Positions 3,859 to 10,912 of a DNA stretch of 32,855 bases are shown here, one piece after another (positions within the stretch are counted from its first letter, which is position 1; each line of letters opens with the position of its first letter). A program made the translations under genes and the position numbers. The DNA is from Ignavibacteria bacterium (GTDB lineage Bacteria > Bacteroidota > Ignavibacteria > Tepidaquicellales > OLB5), in the NCBI GenBank assembly GCA_030835005.1, contig JAUQWT010000226.1, positions 1-32,855 of the forward strand. The letters are read 5' to 3'. A model generated the notes under the pieces. It ran no database searches and had not been told where the DNA came from. It saw nothing but the letters and a program-made list of their open reading frames with translations.

Positions 3859-3889
3859 TTGACACTCATAATATTTTTTTGTAAGTTTG
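3859..3889 (+). promoter_or_regulatory. Bacteroidota-type promoter driving the ABC-exporter leader
   Basis: TTG (3859-3861), N20, TAAGTTTG (3882-3889). Confidence 0.7.
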
Positions 3890-3950
3890 TAATAACACTA
3901 ACTAACGACATTTAATAACTAAACCACGGGGATGAAAACCAGGAAATAAT

Positions 3951-4061
3951 ATGACAAACTTCATCACAACATATATGGTGACTATCACATCACCCATTTT
4001 CAAAGCTCTCGTGGGAGACGTTTGTCCGGCGGTTAGCGTTAAACGGAGGTTTAAGGGATAA
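3951..4061 (+). CDS. Putative 36-aa leader peptide MTNFITTYMVTITSPIFKALVGDVCPAVSVKRRFKG (absent from supplied ORF track)
   Basis: ATG at 3951 preceded by AGGA (3941-3944). TAA at 4059-4061 lies in the apical part of the antiterminator. Five Thr and three Ile codons in the first 17. Confidence 0.55.
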   Translation: MTNFITTYMVTITSPIFKALVGDVCPAVSVKRRFKG

Positions 4062-4088
4062 AACCTCGAATAAATAAGAGTTTAAGCA

Positions 4089-4129
4089 AACCGCGGACAG
4101 ATCAAAAATGATGTTCGCGGTTTTTTTTT
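4089..4129 (+). terminator. Intrinsic terminator of the leader
   Basis: AACCGCGGAC-AG-ATCA-AAAA-TGAT-GTTCGCGGTT followed by a T-run; 14 paired positions with one 2-nt bulge. Confidence 0.85.
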
Positions 4130-4150
4130 AGAGTAAATTAAGTTAAATAT

Positions 4151-4231
4151 TTGCGAGGAGCACTTGCTACGAAGCAATCTCAAAAGTAGTCACGCAATAA
4201 GATTGCTTCGGGTACTAAAGCACCCTCGCAA
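4151..4231. repeat. Long dispersed-type stem-loop repeat (TTGCGAGGAGC...CGAAGCAATCT...AGATTGCTTCG...CCTCGCAA)
   Basis: Outer arms TTGCGAGG 4151-4158 / CCTCGCAA 4224-4231; inner arms CGAAGCAATCT 4170-4180 / AGATTGCTTCG 4200-4210, all perfect. Confidence 0.75.
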
Positions 4232-4246
4232 AAAAGAAGAATAAGA

Positions 4247-6145
4247 ATGAAAAGTTTAAAAAAATTATTTGAAATCTTAGGAAAGTGGAAATACCAGTAC
4301 ATTTCCGCAGGTGTTTTATTGATAATATCAGTTGGTTTCCGCTTAATGGAGCCGAAAGTTCTGCAGATAGCTGTTGATAAAATAATCAGCATTTTCGTTG
4401 CAAAACAAAGCCTGCCGGTTAGTGAAAATGACTTTGTCACAAACAATCTGTACAAACTGCTTCCGGAGCTGAAAATTGAAAATGCGGGAATTATACTTGT
4501 TTATCTTGGTGTAATTTTTCTAGCAATAGCGCTCTTCAGAGGTATAACAATGCTCACCTCAAGTGCAATTGCAGCATCATCAACTGAAAAGGCGATGAAG
4601 CAGCTTAGGGATAAATTGTTTTCCCATTTGCAGCATCTGCCGATGGAATATTTCGGCAAGACACCAACAGGCGAACTCATCCAGCGCTGCACAGGTGATG
4701 TTGAAACGCTCAGGAAGTTTGCCACAATGCAAGTAACTGAAACAATAAGGCTAGGCGCAATATTTGTTGGCGCGTTTGCAATGATGTACATGGTAAATCA
4801 TACATACGCGTTCATTGCGATCTGCCTCTTCCCGATAGTGATATCGGCATCTTACTTCTTCTTTAAAAAAGAAGGTGAGATTTGGACAAAGCATGAGCAT
4901 GAGCAGGATAAGCTAACTGCGCTTGTTCAGGAAAATCTTTCAGGTATACGTGTAGTTAAAGCATTTGCGAAGGAAAACTATGAAATCGATAAGTTCACCA
5001 GGCAGAATGAACAAAAACGCAAATGGGGTTTAAGATTACTGAACCTGCATGCAATTTACTGGCCAAGCAGTGATGTAATGGTTTACCTTCAGCTTGCAAT
5101 AAGCATTTTTGCTGGCGGTTATTTTGTGCTGAATAACAGAATTACTATTGGAGAGTACACGGCATTCTTCACTTACGCGGCATATGTAACCTGGCCTATG
5201 AGAAGGCTTGCACAACTTGTAAGCGAAATGGGAATGACTCGTGTGGCGATCGACAGGATTTATTCGATACTTAACTACAATCAGGAAGATTATGAAGGAT
5301 TTGATAACGGCGGTAAAGACCTTCAAGGACTGATTGAATTTGAGAATGTTCACTTTAAATATGAAGAAGATGAAAAACCAGTATTGAACGGAGTCAGCTT
5401 TAAGATCGGTGCAGGCGAGAAAGTTGCCCTGCTTGGCCCCACAGGAGCCGGCAAATCAACTATCATATCACTGCTGATGCGCTTCTATGATCCCATAAGC
5501 GGAACGATCAGAATTGACGGCAGGGATATCAGAGAATACTCACGCCCGTTCCTAAGAAGCAAAATTGGAGTAGTATTACAAAAACCGTTTTTGTTCTCAA
5601 CTTCGATCAAAGAGAACATTGCATATTCCAAGCCTGATACTCACATTGATGAAATTGTCGAATCGGCAAAGGTTGCAAATGTCCACAAGATCATCAAAGA
5701 GGCTTTCCCGAACAGTTACGATACTGTTGTCGGCGAAAAAGGAGTAACGCTCTCCGGCGGACAGAAACAGCGCGTAACATTGGCAAGGACAATACTAAAA
5801 GATCCTGATATACTTGTGCTTGATGACTCCACTTCATCGGTTGATACTGAAACCGAGTTTGAGATCCAAAGAGCGCTTAAAGGAGTTACCGAGGATAAAA
5901 CTACGATCGTCATTGCGCACCGCGTAACATCTGTTCAGGAGTGCAGCAGAATAATTGTACTGGATAAAGGGAGAGTCATAGAGACGGGCACGCATGAAGA
6001 GTTGATTGAGAATGATAAATTCTACAGAAAAATATACGATATCCAGGTATCAATAGAAGATGAGATAAACAGAGATATTGAAAGCTCATCTGAAATAAAA
6101 AGTAAAAAGGCAAAAGTGAAAATAGAATTGGATTCAGTTGCATAA
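4247..6145 (+). CDS. ABC exporter, ATP-binding/permease subunit (TM287/BmrC-like, degenerate Walker B)
   Basis: Six-TM ABC domain; Walker A GPTGAGKST, signature LSGGQKQR, Walker B ILVLDDSTSSVD (D where the catalytic E is expected), H-loop IAHR. Confidence 0.95.
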   Translation: MKSLKKLFEILGKWKYQYISAGVLLIISVGFRLMEPKVLQIAVDKIISIFVAKQSLPVSENDFVTNNLYKLLPELKIENAGIILVYLGVIFLAIALFRGITMLTSSAIAASSTEKAMKQLRDKLFSHLQHLPMEYFGKTPTGELIQRCTGDVETLRKFATMQVTETIRLGAIFVGAFAMMYMVNHTYAFIAICLFPIVISASYFFFKKEGEIWTKHEHEQDKLTALVQENLSGIRVVKAFAKENYEIDKFTRQNEQKRKWGLRLLNLHAIYWPSSDVMVYLQLAISIFAGGYFVLNNRITIGEYTAFFTYAAYVTWPMRRLAQLVSEMGMTRVAIDRIYSILNYNQEDYEGFDNGGKDLQGLIEFENVHFKYEEDEKPVLNGVSFKIGAGEKVALLGPTGAGKSTIISLLMRFYDPISGTIRIDGRDIREYSRPFLRSKIGVVLQKPFLFSTSIKENIAYSKPDTHIDEIVESAKVANVHKIIKEAFPNSYDTVVGEKGVTLSGGQKQRVTLARTILKDPDILVLDDSTSSVDTETEFEIQRALKGVTEDKTTIVIAHRVTSVQECSRIIVLDKGRVIETGTHEELIENDKFYRKIYDIQVSIEDEINRDIESSSEIKSKKAKVKIELDSVA

Positions 6146-6183: not shown

Positions 6184-8013
6184 ATGTCACAACTAAGAGA
6201 CAAACAATTCAAAACTAAAGGAGCGCTATGGCCTTTCTTAAAGCGCTTATTAAAATACAGTTTCCGCTATCCCAAGTGGGTTGCCGGCTTCATAGGCTTT
6301 GTGCTTCTTGTTGCGCTTGTAGAAGCTGTTTACCCGCTTGTATGGCTTAATCTGATCGATACGGTAATTGTACCTGCAGTTGAATCATACAAAACAAACG
6401 GCTTTGTGAAGGATATCGATTCCGGCATTCTCAGAAATTACGGCTTTATCTTCGCCGGGCTGGGATTAGTACTCGCAGGCGGAGTATTCGGTTTCATCAA
6501 CTTTGCTGGGCGGATCCAGGAATATGTAATGTATGATATAAGGCAGGAGCTTTTTATCAAGCTGCAGCAGCTTTCGTTCTCATACTTTGATAAATCCGCA
6601 GTAGGCTGGCTGCTATCGAGGATATCTTCCGATACGGTAAAAGTGACTGAACTTATTTCATGGACGATGATCGAGGCAATATGGGGAACGGGAATGATAA
6701 TTTTCTGTGTAACATCCATGTTCATCTATAACTGGAAGCTAGCAATAATTATCACGCTTGCCATTCCCGTATTAATGCTTGTTTCTATAAAGCTCAGAAT
6801 GCTGATTCTCAAATATTCCCGTGAAGCAAGGAAATACAACAGCGAGATGACTGCAAGATTTAACGAACACATTAACGGTGTTGAAGTAAACAAAAGCCTT
6901 GTTCAGGAGGACAGAGTGAGTGAGAACTTTAAAGATCTTAGCGAAAAGATGAAAGTGTCATCATACAAAGCCGCGTATTACCAGGCAATTTTCATGCCGC
7001 TGATAATTTTCGGGGGATCGCTTGCTGCTGCATTTGTGATCTATTACGGTGGCTCGATGGCAATTGCAGTACCAGCAGCAATTACTATTGGCACACTAGC
7101 TGCATTTTTCGGGTATGCAACAATGATATTTGAACCGATTCTGGATATATCAAGATTCTATTCACAGGCGCAGAATAGTATTTCGGCAGGGGAGAGAATA
7201 TTTTCTCTAATAGATACCAAAGCCGAAATAGTGAATATTACGGGTGCAGGAGAGTTCGGCAGAATAGAGGGTGATATAGAATTTGATAATGTTTCATTCC
7301 ATTATGAAACAGGTAAACAGGTTCTGCAGGACTTGAATCTGAAAATAGAAGCCGGTACTTCTGTAGCTTTGGTCGGTGAAACCGGCGGCGGTAAATCAAC
7401 AATAATCAACTTGATATGCAGGTTCTACGAACCAACAGGCGGCAGGATTCTGATAGATGATACTGATTACAGGAAAATGACAATGGAAAGCCTGAGGAGC
7501 CAGCTTGGAGTAGTACTGCAAACGCCGCATCTGTTTTCCGGTACAGTTCGCGAGAATATTATGTATGGATATGAAGGTGCGACCGACATGGAAGTAATAA
7601 ATGCTCTGAGTACTGTCGGAGCCGAAGAGTATGCATATAGGCTTGATGAACAGGTCGGCGAAGGAGGCGAGCAGCTTTCGATGGGTGAGAAACAGCTTAT
7701 ATCATTTGCCCGGGCAATACTTGCAGACCCCAGGATATTCATAATGGATGAAGCAACATCTTCGGTTGATACAATTACCGAGGCAAAGATCCAGAAAGGT
7801 ATTTCCGGGATCATGGAAGGAAGAACTTCAATAATTATTGCGCACAGGCTTTCGACAATTAAAAACAGCGACAGAATTCTTGTAATTAATAAAGGTAGAA
7901 TAATTGAAGACGGAAGCCACAGAGAATTGATGATGAGTAAGGGAGTTTATTATAAACTGTACACAAGACAGCTTAGGGCAGAAAGGGAAAAGGAAGTCAT
8001 AAATGCGGCATAA
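6184..8013 (+). CDS. ABC exporter, ATP-binding/permease subunit (TM288/BmrD-like partner)
   Basis: Walker A GETGGGKST, non-canonical signature LSMGEKQL, canonical Walker B IFIMDEATSSVD, H-loop IAHR. Confidence 0.95.
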   Translation: MSQLRDKQFKTKGALWPFLKRLLKYSFRYPKWVAGFIGFVLLVALVEAVYPLVWLNLIDTVIVPAVESYKTNGFVKDIDSGILRNYGFIFAGLGLVLAGGVFGFINFAGRIQEYVMYDIRQELFIKLQQLSFSYFDKSAVGWLLSRISSDTVKVTELISWTMIEAIWGTGMIIFCVTSMFIYNWKLAIIITLAIPVLMLVSIKLRMLILKYSREARKYNSEMTARFNEHINGVEVNKSLVQEDRVSENFKDLSEKMKVSSYKAAYYQAIFMPLIIFGGSLAAAFVIYYGGSMAIAVPAAITIGTLAAFFGYATMIFEPILDISRFYSQAQNSISAGERIFSLIDTKAEIVNITGAGEFGRIEGDIEFDNVSFHYETGKQVLQDLNLKIEAGTSVALVGETGGGKSTIINLICRFYEPTGGRILIDDTDYRKMTMESLRSQLGVVLQTPHLFSGTVRENIMYGYEGATDMEVINALSTVGAEEYAYRLDEQVGEGGEQLSMGEKQLISFARAILADPRIFIMDEATSSVDTITEAKIQKGISGIMEGRTSIIIAHRLSTIKNSDRILVINKGRIIEDGSHRELMMSKGVYYKLYTRQLRAEREKEVINAA

Positions 8014-8041: not shown

Positions 8042-8803
8042 ATGGAAAGTAAATATAAATACAACGAAGCAACAGTAAGGTTCTATGATGTAGTGTATGA
8101 GGATTTCGGACACTTGAAAAAGGGACTTGAGTTTTATTCACAAGAGATAAAAAAAGCTGGCGGTTCAGTACTTGAAGTTGGCGCCGGGACAGGCAGGATA
8201 TTTATTCCGGCACTGAAACAAAGTGCTGATATTTATGGCATTGATCAAAGTGAACTGATGATTGAAAAACTTAAAAGTAAACTTGATCCGGCGGAGCATT
8301 ACAGGATAAGCCAGCAGGATGCAAGGAATTTCAATCTTGAAAAGAAATTCAAATTGATAGTTTCCCCGTTCCGGGTTTTTCAGCATTTGCTCACAGTCGA
8401 AGATCAATTGATGGCTTTAGGCAGGATTTACGATCACCTAGAAGCGGGCGGTTATTTCATTTTTGATCTTTTCAGGCCTAGCTTAACAAGGCTTGTAAAC
8501 GAGGTTAACGACTCACTTGAATTTGACGGAGAATATGAGCCCGGCAAAAATCTCAAAAGGTATTACTCGGTTAAGCCGGATTATCTCAACCAGCAGCAGA
8601 ATGTTGAATTCAGATTCGTTTGGGATGAAGACGGCGAAGAAAAGACTTCAACTTACGCATTTCCAATGCGGTATTACTTCAGGTTTGAAGCTGAGCACCT
8701 GGTCGCGAGGGCAGGATTTAAGCTTGAGCATATCTACGGAGATTTTGATAGAAATGAGCTGTGCAATAAATCAAATGAATTTGTATTAATTTGCAGAAAG
8801 TAA
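8042..8803 (+). CDS. Class I SAM-dependent methyltransferase
   Basis: Motif I VLEVGAGTGRIFIPAL; motif II region YGIDQSELMIEKLKSK. Confidence 0.88.
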   Translation: MESKYKYNEATVRFYDVVYEDFGHLKKGLEFYSQEIKKAGGSVLEVGAGTGRIFIPALKQSADIYGIDQSELMIEKLKSKLDPAEHYRISQQDARNFNLEKKFKLIVSPFRVFQHLLTVEDQLMALGRIYDHLEAGGYFIFDLFRPSLTRLVNEVNDSLEFDGEYEPGKNLKRYYSVKPDYLNQQQNVEFRFVWDEDGEEKTSTYAFPMRYYFRFEAEHLVARAGFKLEHIYGDFDRNELCNKSNEFVLICRK

Positions 8804-8805
8804 GA

Positions 8806-9819
8806 ATGTATAAGACAATTTCAATATCGGATCTGGATATTAAGGGTTGGGCTGAATATTACAGGCTATCACAATCATTTGATTGTGTGAGCAGCATTGA
8901 TATCACAAAAGCCGCATTAGAAATTGATAGTTATAAAAAGAGCAGGTATGATGATCTTGAATTGAATAAGGACCTGAATCAGAATGAAAAAGTTATTTTT
9001 GATAACGATACTGCAATAGGCTGGCTTGTTTACAGAATTGACAGGGGCGGGTCCTCATTTGCATTCAATACTGTTCATGAGCCTGTTCCGTCTGATTTCA
9101 TGAATCTCATTCTAAAGATAATTTATGAATTTATATGTGAAAGAAATGAGAATTCTTCTAATTTCTGGACGTATGATGCGGCAAAGATTGATGCTATGAA
9201 GAGTATTTCTGCTCCAGTGTTTGAAGAAATGATGATCTCAAGAATATCAAGAAACGATATGGATAAGGCATTTTATAATCAGATAATTAAACAAACGGAT
9301 ATTTCAGGCTATGAGTTAAGATTCTACAACAATGTACCTGAAGAACTGCTTGATAAATATGTTCAGCTCCGCAATGAAATATCAGAAGACATGGCGAACT
9401 TAAAGCCTGTGAAACATCTGAACAAAAAATGGTCAAAAAATGATTTTACCCGCAGTGCCGAAATAGATAAACTTCAGGGTGCAACTATGAATATGCATAT
9501 GCTGCTTGATGAAGCAGGCGAAATTGCAGCATTCTGCTCGCTTTATACAGATGAGGACAAGCCTGAAATCATAAGGCAAAGCGGGGGATTGACTGCAGTT
9601 GCAAGAGATCACCGCGGAAAAGGTTTTGCCTCATATCTTAAGGCAAAGATGTATCTAAAACTGCTGGAAGAAAACCGGGACTTTAAGTTTGTAGAAACCG
9701 ATACCATGCCGTGGAATACTTATATGTACAGAATAAATGAGAGATTCGGATTTAAGCCTTTTGAGTATGGTTTTGACTTCAAGCTAACAAAAGAGTTCTT
9801 AAAAAATTATCTAAACTAA
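8806..9819 (+). CDS. GNAT-fold N-acetyltransferase-like protein (TTG at 8791 is an alternative start)
   Basis: C-terminal GGLTAVARDHRGKGFASYLKAKMYLKLLEEN (GNAT acetyl-CoA binding motif) and TMPWNTYMYRINERFGFKPFEYGFDF. Confidence 0.8.
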   Translation: MYKTISISDLDIKGWAEYYRLSQSFDCVSSIDITKAALEIDSYKKSRYDDLELNKDLNQNEKVIFDNDTAIGWLVYRIDRGGSSFAFNTVHEPVPSDFMNLILKIIYEFICERNENSSNFWTYDAAKIDAMKSISAPVFEEMMISRISRNDMDKAFYNQIIKQTDISGYELRFYNNVPEELLDKYVQLRNEISEDMANLKPVKHLNKKWSKNDFTRSAEIDKLQGATMNMHMLLDEAGEIAAFCSLYTDEDKPEIIRQSGGLTAVARDHRGKGFASYLKAKMYLKLLEENRDFKFVETDTMPWNTYMYRINERFGFKPFEYGFDFKLTKEFLKNYLN

Positions 9820-9829
9820 ACAACAAATA

Positions 9830-10912
9830 TTGACAACACAAAACGGTCTTAGGAATTTTGGATGGAATGATTTTTTTGAAGCAAATTTTTCGGAATTTGC
9901 CGGCGGAGAGTTTATACCTGCAAGAGTAGCTGTAGAGCACAGGAATTATTATGAATTGTATTCGGCAATTGGAGAGCTGACTGCTGATAAAGCCGGAAAG
10001 CTTTTCTACAGCGCACTGGATGGCAGCGCTTTGCCCGCTGTTGGTGACTGGCTTGCAGTGAAGCCGGTTGCAAATGAATCAAAAGCAGTCATTCATGCAG
10101 TTTTGCCAAGGCTCACCAAGTTTTCGAGAAAGAAAGCGGGCGCAACTACCGAAGAACAGATCGTTGCAGCAAATGTGGATTCGGTATTCATTATTTCTTC
10201 ACTTAACCAGGAGCTTAATTACAGAAGAATTGAGCGATACTTGACTCTTGCCTGGGAAAACGATGTTAAGCCGGTAGTAATATTAAGTAAAGCAGATCTT
10301 TGTGAAGACATATATGGCAAGCTAGCCGAAACGCAAGCAGCACTCATTGGAACTGATGTTCACGTTGTAAGCGCCAAAGAAAGAGCCGGTATTGAGGAGC
10401 TGTATGTTTACTTTGAAGGCAATAAAACCGTTGCAGTAATAGGATCATCGGGTGTGGGAAAATCCACACTTATAAACAGCCTGCTTGAGCGCGAGAAGAT
10501 GGATGTTAGCGATATAAGTCTGTATAAAGATAAAGGACGGCATACAACTACTCACAGGGAGCTTTCAATTGTTCCAGGCGGGGGAGTGATAATGGATACA
10601 CCGGGAATGAGGGAAATACAGCTCTGGGAAGGCGGCGAAGGGCTAAGCGAGCTTTTTGATGATATTGAACAGCTAACACTTGAATGCAAATTCTCAGACT
10701 GCAAGCATGATTCCGAGCCCGGATGTGCAATTCAAGCCGCAATCTCAGCAGGTACCCTCGAAGAAAGCCGGTTCAAAAGCTATAAAAAGCTGCAAAATGA
10801 GGTGAATTACATTGCTCGCAAGCAGGATAAGAAACTGCAGATAGAAGAGAAGAAGAAATGGAAAAAGCTGATAAGTGAAGGGAAGAAGAGGAGCGAAGAA
10901 AAGAGGAAATGA
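9830..10912 (+). CDS. rsgA: Ribosome small subunit-dependent GTPase A (TTG start)
   Basis: Circularly permuted GTPase: LSKADLC before GSSGVGKSTLINSLL and DTPGMREIQLW; C-terminal CKFSDCKHDSEPGCAI zinc-site motif. Confidence 0.93.
   Translation: MTTQNGLRNFGWNDFFEANFSEFAGGEFIPARVAVEHRNYYELYSAIGELTADKAGKLFYSALDGSALPAVGDWLAVKPVANESKAVIHAVLPRLTKFSRKKAGATTEEQIVAANVDSVFIISSLNQELNYRRIERYLTLAWENDVKPVVILSKADLCEDIYGKLAETQAALIGTDVHVVSAKERAGIEELYVYFEGNKTVAVIGSSGVGKSTLINSLLEREKMDVSDISLYKDKGRHTTTHRELSIVPGGGVIMDTPGMREIQLWEGGEGLSELFDDIEQLTLECKFSDCKHDSEPGCAIQAAISAGTLEESRFKSYKKLQNEVNYIARKQDKKLQIEEKKKWKKLISEGKKRSEEKRK

Follow-up and report, generated by a model that had tools for sequence, protein, structure and literature searches.

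Does translation of a short leader ORF decide whether RNA polymerase enters an ABC exporter operon in an Ignavibacteria bacterium, and if so, what does the translating ribosome sense? The window analysed here is the whole 32,855-nt stretch of contig JAUQWT010000226.1 (assembly GCA_030835005.1, a metagenome-assembled genome of 443 contigs with 6% contamination). The initial annotation had described positions 3859 to 4246 as a ribosome-mediated attenuator with a Thr/Ile-rich leader peptide, which would respond to translation-inhibiting antibiotics or to the charging of Thr- and Ile-tRNA. We compared this leader with its relatives in the same class. The observation was confirmed and the interpretation was partly supported: the attenuator layout and the exporter hold in the relatives, the helix proposed at the start of the ORF and the Thr/Ile signal do not.

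Anatomy of the leader

Promoter, leader ORF, antiterminator, inner helices, stop codon in the apical loop and terminator with U-run were all found at the positions first assigned to them (Table 1). The promoter is of the Bacteroidota type, and the TTGACA / TAnnTTTG pair is also present upstream of most orthologous leaders. Four segments of the leader can form mutually exclusive helices: segment 1 with segment 2 (1:2), segment 2 with segment 3 (2:3, the antiterminator) and segment 3 with segment 4 (3:4, the terminator). The antiterminator encloses two inner helices, GC(g)TTAAAC with GTTTAAGC and GAGGTTT with AAACCTC, and the leader stop codon (4059-4061) sits in its apical loop. In the window the predicted energy is -29.0 kcal/mol for the antiterminator hairpin and -16.9 kcal/mol for the terminator. 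These elements exceed chance expectation: the leader fold has a z of -3.1 against shuffles, and pairing of the ORF arm with the terminator arm has a z of -4.4 (p 0.003) against dinucleotide shuffles, the same test giving p<=0.05 in 32 of the 34 orthologous leaders.

Table 1. Features of the attenuator and the exporter operon in the window
Feature	Position	Strand	Basis
Promoter, Bacteroidota type (TTGACA; TAAGTTTG; TTG-N20-TAAGTTTG)	3859..3889	+	sequence
Segment 1, 5' UTR, can pair with antiterminator 5' arm; candidate anti-antiterminator	3893..3911	+	
Leader ORF, 36 codons, MTNFITTYMVTITSPIFKALVGDVCPAVSVKRRFKG	3951..4061	+	length conservation, pN/pS
Segment 2, antiterminator 5' arm TGTCCGgCGGTT, inside ORF (codons 25-28)	4023..4034	+	co-variation with 4089-4099
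Antiterminator hairpin, inner part	4036..4087	+	helices 4036-4044/4080-4087 and 4046-4052/4062-4068
Segment 3, antiterminator 3' arm = terminator 5' arm, AACCGCGGACA	4089..4099	+	pairs with 4023-4034 or 4113-4122
Segment 4, terminator 3' arm (4113-4122) and U-run (4121-4129, nine U)	4113..4129	+	
Imperfect palindrome TTTGCGAGG..CCTCGCAAA, between terminator and exporter gene	4153..4231	.	fold z -4.9
ABC exporter half-transporter 1	4247..6145	+	Walker B ...LVLDDSTSSVD, degenerate
ABC exporter half-transporter 2	6184..8013	+	canonical ...FIMDEATSSVD; signature LSMGEKQ degenerate
Downstream genes of the probable operon	8042..10912	+	Pfam; recurrent behind the ABC pair in relatives
Methyltransferase	8042-8803	+	Pfam
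GNAT acetyltransferase	8791-9819	+	Pfam
RsgA GTPase (30S-assembly)	9830-10912	+	Pfam

Two further elements were noted. An SD-like GGAGG (4045-4049 in the window) precedes the stop of the leader by 4-5 codons, both in the window and in most relatives, even where the codons differ, and was considered as a candidate pausing or re-initiation signal. The palindrome downstream of the terminator was rejected as a part of the switch because it is absent or different in the relatives, which carry palindromes of other sequence in its place; no second copy of it was found in the assembly.

Distribution of the leader and the exporter

With the first ABC protein as query we searched 391 genomes from the class and took matches with E below 1e-200 as orthologues. 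By this threshold 31 of the 391 genomes hold the exporter, the next best matches being paralogues near 1e-116. The leader layout was found upstream of the exporter pair in 34 of 34 loci from these 31 genomes, which belong to three families, and the leader was re-found in relatives by a covariance model. The search for homologous leaders that the initial annotation had proposed returned both the ORF and the co-varying alternative helices upstream of orthologous ABC pairs.

The 34 loci consist of one for each of the 31 genomes and three more from the window's assembly, where leader and exporter recur on other contigs (C217, C333 and C431 of G000; protein identity about 82%, a PhzF neighbour in at least two). 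Since at least two of the extra copies keep the same gene order and the assembly has 6% contamination, the copies probably come from related species. Within the 391-genome search, genomes of the order that lack the ABC orthologue lack the leader too, and a terminator-based pattern scan of the same genomes gave only three places unlinked to this exporter. A search at the level of the phylum detected no orthologue outside the window's genus in that sample.

Conservation and co-variation of the alternative helices

The geometry of the leader is well preserved. The antiterminator arm starts at ORF codon 24-29 in 29 of 34 loci, and all 34 carry the stop codon inside the antiterminator hairpin and a terminator hairpin with U-run. 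The distance from the stop codon to the terminator 5' arm is 24-36 nt in all loci (27 nt in the window). The antiterminator hairpin is at least as stable as the terminator in 32/34 loci; it is slightly weaker in the remaining two (L056 and L081).

We then examined the alignments for compensatory changes by shuffle tests that were uncorrected for kinship among the 34 related loci. With the ORF-arm register and bulge fixed by hand from a conserved TCCG core, 90.4% of the cells in the antiterminator alignment were paired and four pairs had changed on both sides, as many as in only 2 of 500 shuffles; the covariation score was reached by 0/500. For the terminator, 95.3% of the cells were paired, four changes were double-sided and again none of 500 shuffles reached the covariation score. 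The most divergent family member (G014) has all its arms rebuilt (GTCTGtCGGC/GCCGCAGAC/GTCTGCGG) and retains both antiterminator and terminator pairing.

Pairing energies were also compared between true and permuted combinations of arms. The 1:2, 2:3 and 3:4 pairings were each better in the true combinations (p=5e-5 each), and the control regions gave no excess. For 1:2 the own pairing amounted to -14.2 kcal/mol vs -10.7 kcal/mol for swapped partners (p=5e-5), and the early ORF and upstream controls showed no such difference. Combined over the 34 loci, 1:2 pairing has a p of about 1e-23, uncorrected for relatedness; it is not significant in the window alone (p=0.19) and is missing in G014. In most members of family f2, for example, the helix pairs TCACGGA with TCCGTGG. 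The window's genus is divided: one half uses CTAACCAG and CTGGTTAG, the other CTAAC..GGAC and GTCC..GTTAG. A G-U pair is kept in most antiterminators, presumably because the U must also pair with an A of segment 1.

The initial annotation had placed the competitor of the antiterminator arm at the start of the ORF, in the helix 3953-3959/4020-4026 (GACAAAC/GTTTGTC). This helix is present in the window with 7 of 7 pairs, but it is not conserved as a switching helix: 5/7 pairs remain in the closest relative and 3-5/7 in others, and the early ORF pairs with the arm more weakly in true than in swapped combinations. The conserved competitor is instead the 5' UTR segment at 3893-3911, our candidate anti-antiterminator. 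We concluded that, at the level of sequence comparison, the parts of the leader are conserved, its mutually exclusive pairings co-evolve, codons 5-16 of the ORF are under selection (see below) and the whole is linked exclusively to the exporter operon.

Proposed mechanism

From this comparison we consider it probable, with good confidence, that the leader is a trp/BmrB-like ribosome-mediated transcription attenuator that controls the ABC exporter operon through exclusive 1:2, 2:3 and 3:4 helices, normal translation leading to termination and early slowing to readthrough. The layout expected of such an attenuator, with a leader ORF, an antiterminator that overlaps it, a terminator and a stop codon within the antiterminator hairpin, is borne out by the compensatory changes in relatives. 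Termination and readthrough in cells, and the direction of ribosome control, are what we infer from it.

During normal translation the ribosome would pass segment 2 and reach the stop codon inside the antiterminator hairpin. The 2:3 helix could then not hold at the time segment 4 is made, 3:4 would form, and transcription would stop at about 4125 with the exporter OFF. If ribosomes slow down or stall within the first 16-19 codons, segment 2 would stay free, 2:3 could form ahead of the synthesis of segment 4, and RNA polymerase would enter the exporter genes (ON). If the leader is not translated at all, segment 1 could take segment 2, and this would favour 3:4, giving the OFF state as in trp.

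The likely role of the 1:2 helix is to hold RNA that is not translated in the OFF state. For induction, a stalled ribosome would presumably have to prevent 1:2 pairing with a segment 1 that lies upstream of the ORF. This segment is 58-40 nt away from the ORF and outside the footprint of a stalled ribosome, and the trp logic, in which the ribosome covers segment 1, is therefore not directly transferable. Alternatively, 1:2 may be a hairpin that serves pausing or timing. If no effective 1:2 helix formed, readthrough would be the default for untranslated RNA; bmrB behaves in the opposite way, its expression falling when the start codon is removed (PMC4191407).

Leader peptide and nature of the signal

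Two evolutionary criteria, constant length and a pN/pS below 1, mark the leader ORF as translated. It has 36 codons in 15 of 16 leaders of the window's family (f1) and 35 codons in the other one; the lengths in the rest range from 34 to 56. The pN/pS was 0.45 for codons 5-16 (site bootstrap 0.24-0.71) and 0.84 for codons 17-23, and the shifted frames gave 1.2. Selection on codons 5-16 thus acts at the protein level, which argues that translation of the N-terminal part matters.

What slows the ribosome could be a specific nascent-chain arrest. Drug-responsive arrest peptides exist in the Erm and MsrD leaders, and codons 5-16 (I..YM[VI]..[TS]AP) may likewise encode an arrest peptide that stalls ribosomes shortly before segment 2 and only in the presence of its cognate drug, which might be a substrate of the exporter. 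This would be a special form of the attenuator proposed above, and we hold it as a tentative possibility. It agrees with selection confined to codons 5-16 and absent from codons 17-23, with the position of codons 5-16, where a stall would leave segment 2 (from codon 24-25) free, and with a Pro located 11 codons before the arm in 15/16 f1 and 4/15 f2 leaders. Against it, the motif fades outside f1 while the RNA device persists, and a general sensor of slow translation fits equally well. The leader peptides outside the window's family are only weakly alike, and for this reason a specific arrest motif is no more than a candidate.

A macrolide stall at the +X+ motif (KRR, codons 31-33) was rejected: a ribosome there covers segment 2 and favours termination, so that induction would be unexplained. 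The RR (CGGAGG) in f2 is partly an RNA-level feature and is replaced in several members.

The initial annotation had also suggested an amino-acid attenuator, in which the leader would sense Thr- and Ile-tRNA charging as thrL does. The window itself has eight Thr/Ile among codons 2-20, as this reading would predict. Thr accounts for 14.8% of codons 2-24 in the window's family, 7.3% in the more distant set and 5.1% in the background; the distant leaders have the same RNA device. Ile reaches 13% in the distant leaders vs 7.8% in the background, in ORFs that are AT-rich, and four leaders (L080 and L082-L084) contain just 2-3 Thr/Ile of 19 codons. The Thr/Ile codons are thus not conserved outside f1, where the rest of the device is kept. 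The operon, made up of the exporter and ribosome-related genes, contains no genes of Thr/Ile biosynthesis. Since Thr is enriched only in the window's family, we consider sensing of Thr/Ile-tRNA very unlikely.

Two explanations do without ribosome control. The terminator might be a constitutive one behind a small expressed peptide gene, with the exporter transcribed from its own downstream promoter. The terminator is strong, and a gap of variable length (13 to 238 nt) that contains palindromes lies between it and the exporter gene, as would suit such an arrangement. The antiterminator arm co-evolves with the terminator arm, however, and in several relatives the U-run and the start codon of the exporter are just 13-31 nt apart, a distance too short to hold a second promoter; we give this explanation very little credence. 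A riboswitch that binds a ligand, or a leader that binds a protein, with an ORF present by chance, could also have a terminator and an antiterminator. This explanation is highly improbable given no Rfam match to a riboswitch or any other family at the gathering or a relaxed threshold, an ORF constant in length (36 codons) with pN/pS below 1, and the lack, between UTR and arm, of any conserved unpaired core resembling an aptamer, the ORF excepted.

Exporter genes and operon partners

The heterodimeric ABC exporter proposed downstream of the leader is supported by its genes, which encode adjacent half-transporters with asymmetric catalytic motifs, one site being degenerate, in all of the 20 genomes examined. 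Comparison with solved structures of bacterial heterodimers gave TM287/288 for both halves and YheH, a BmrCD subunit, for the second half. Genes for the methyltransferase, the GNAT protein and RsgA follow the ABC pair in many relatives, and RsgA is present in most of the operons.

Other genes were found within the operon in some relatives. An RtcB-family RNA ligase gene lies between the two ABC genes in three loci (L093, L094 and L102; G013, G014 and G034). In L097 (G027) RsgA is followed by an Lsa-like ribosome-protection ABC-F (NF000355, 429 bits vs a cut-off of 380), about 7.1 kb downstream of the ABC1 start. Three f2 loci (L095, L096 and L100) encode a protein of about 1060 aa, by eye a tricorn/S41-type protease, between ABC2 and the methyltransferase or RsgA gene.

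The partners RsgA, RtcB and Lsa-like ABC-F point, by association only, to translation inhibitors as the signal. Of the two signals first suggested, translation-inhibiting antibiotics or translation stress would be the better-supported one.

Comparison with known attenuators

Most is known about leader-peptide attenuators in Proteobacteria, Actinobacteria and Firmicutes. In the literature searched we found no description of one in Ignavibacteria, and together with the Rfam result this agrees with the earlier remark that the device is apparently undescribed. The comparative support is unusually good: three alternative helices co-evolve, and the association with a single exporter operon is complete. 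The leader gives experiments a point of entry into the sensing of drugs or translation stress in a lineage that is largely uncultured, and its geometry is unlike those of BmrB and trp.

A second attenuator of the same design was observed before a RIO-type kinase gene in three genomes (L113, about 1554-1690, L114 and L115; G037, G017 and G020). All three leaders have a 23-codon ORF, an ORF arm GCATCCGC/GCGGATGC and a terminator CTGCGGATGC..CTCCGCAG. As in the exporter leader, the ORF arm pairs with the terminator 5' arm, and the terminator is followed by the gene; unlike in the exporter leader, the arms are of other sequence and the segment-1 candidate, GGATGTC, is at the ribosome-binding site. 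It is conceivable, though we would not rate it as likely, that lineage-specific leader-ORF attenuators of Ignavibacteria with a 5' UTR anti-antiterminator form a general translation-stress circuit (exporter, RsgA/RtcB/ABC-F ribosome-rescue cargo and, in some genomes, a RIO kinase), in which the exporter leader would encode a new drug-responsive arrest peptide in codons 5-16.

Like E. coli trpL and thrL, the exporter leader combines a leader ORF with exclusive 1:2, 2:3 and 3:4 helices. It differs from them in that segment 1 is upstream of the ORF and not inside it, in having no conserved run of regulatory codons, and in preceding no biosynthetic operon. The PA5471.1 leader of armZ (MexXY) in Pseudomonas aeruginosa, for which attenuation relieved by ribosome-targeting antibiotics has been proposed (PMC12057347), shares a leader peptide and the control of drug efflux, a comparison of design and not of sequence; it controls the anti-repressor of an RND pump, unlike the leader described here.

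Another close counterpart is BmrB-bmrCD of Bacillus subtilis, an attenuator of a heterodimeric multidrug ABC exporter that is induced by ribosome-targeting antibiotics (PMC4191407). Both have a small leader ORF, an antiterminator in competition with an intrinsic terminator, a heterodimeric ABC exporter and a predicted anti-antiterminator (PMC4191407). In bmrB the coding region of the leader contains the terminator, whereas the terminator here begins 27 nt past the stop (24-36 nt across loci). The Ignavibacteria leader, known from its sequence, further differs in that the stop codon is in the antiterminator loop, the candidate anti-antiterminator is in the 5' UTR and the host belongs to a different phylum. 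We concluded that ribosome-mediated attenuation of drug exporters is known, and that the Ignavibacteria example, with a geometry unlike those of BmrB and trp, is new relative to the literature searched.
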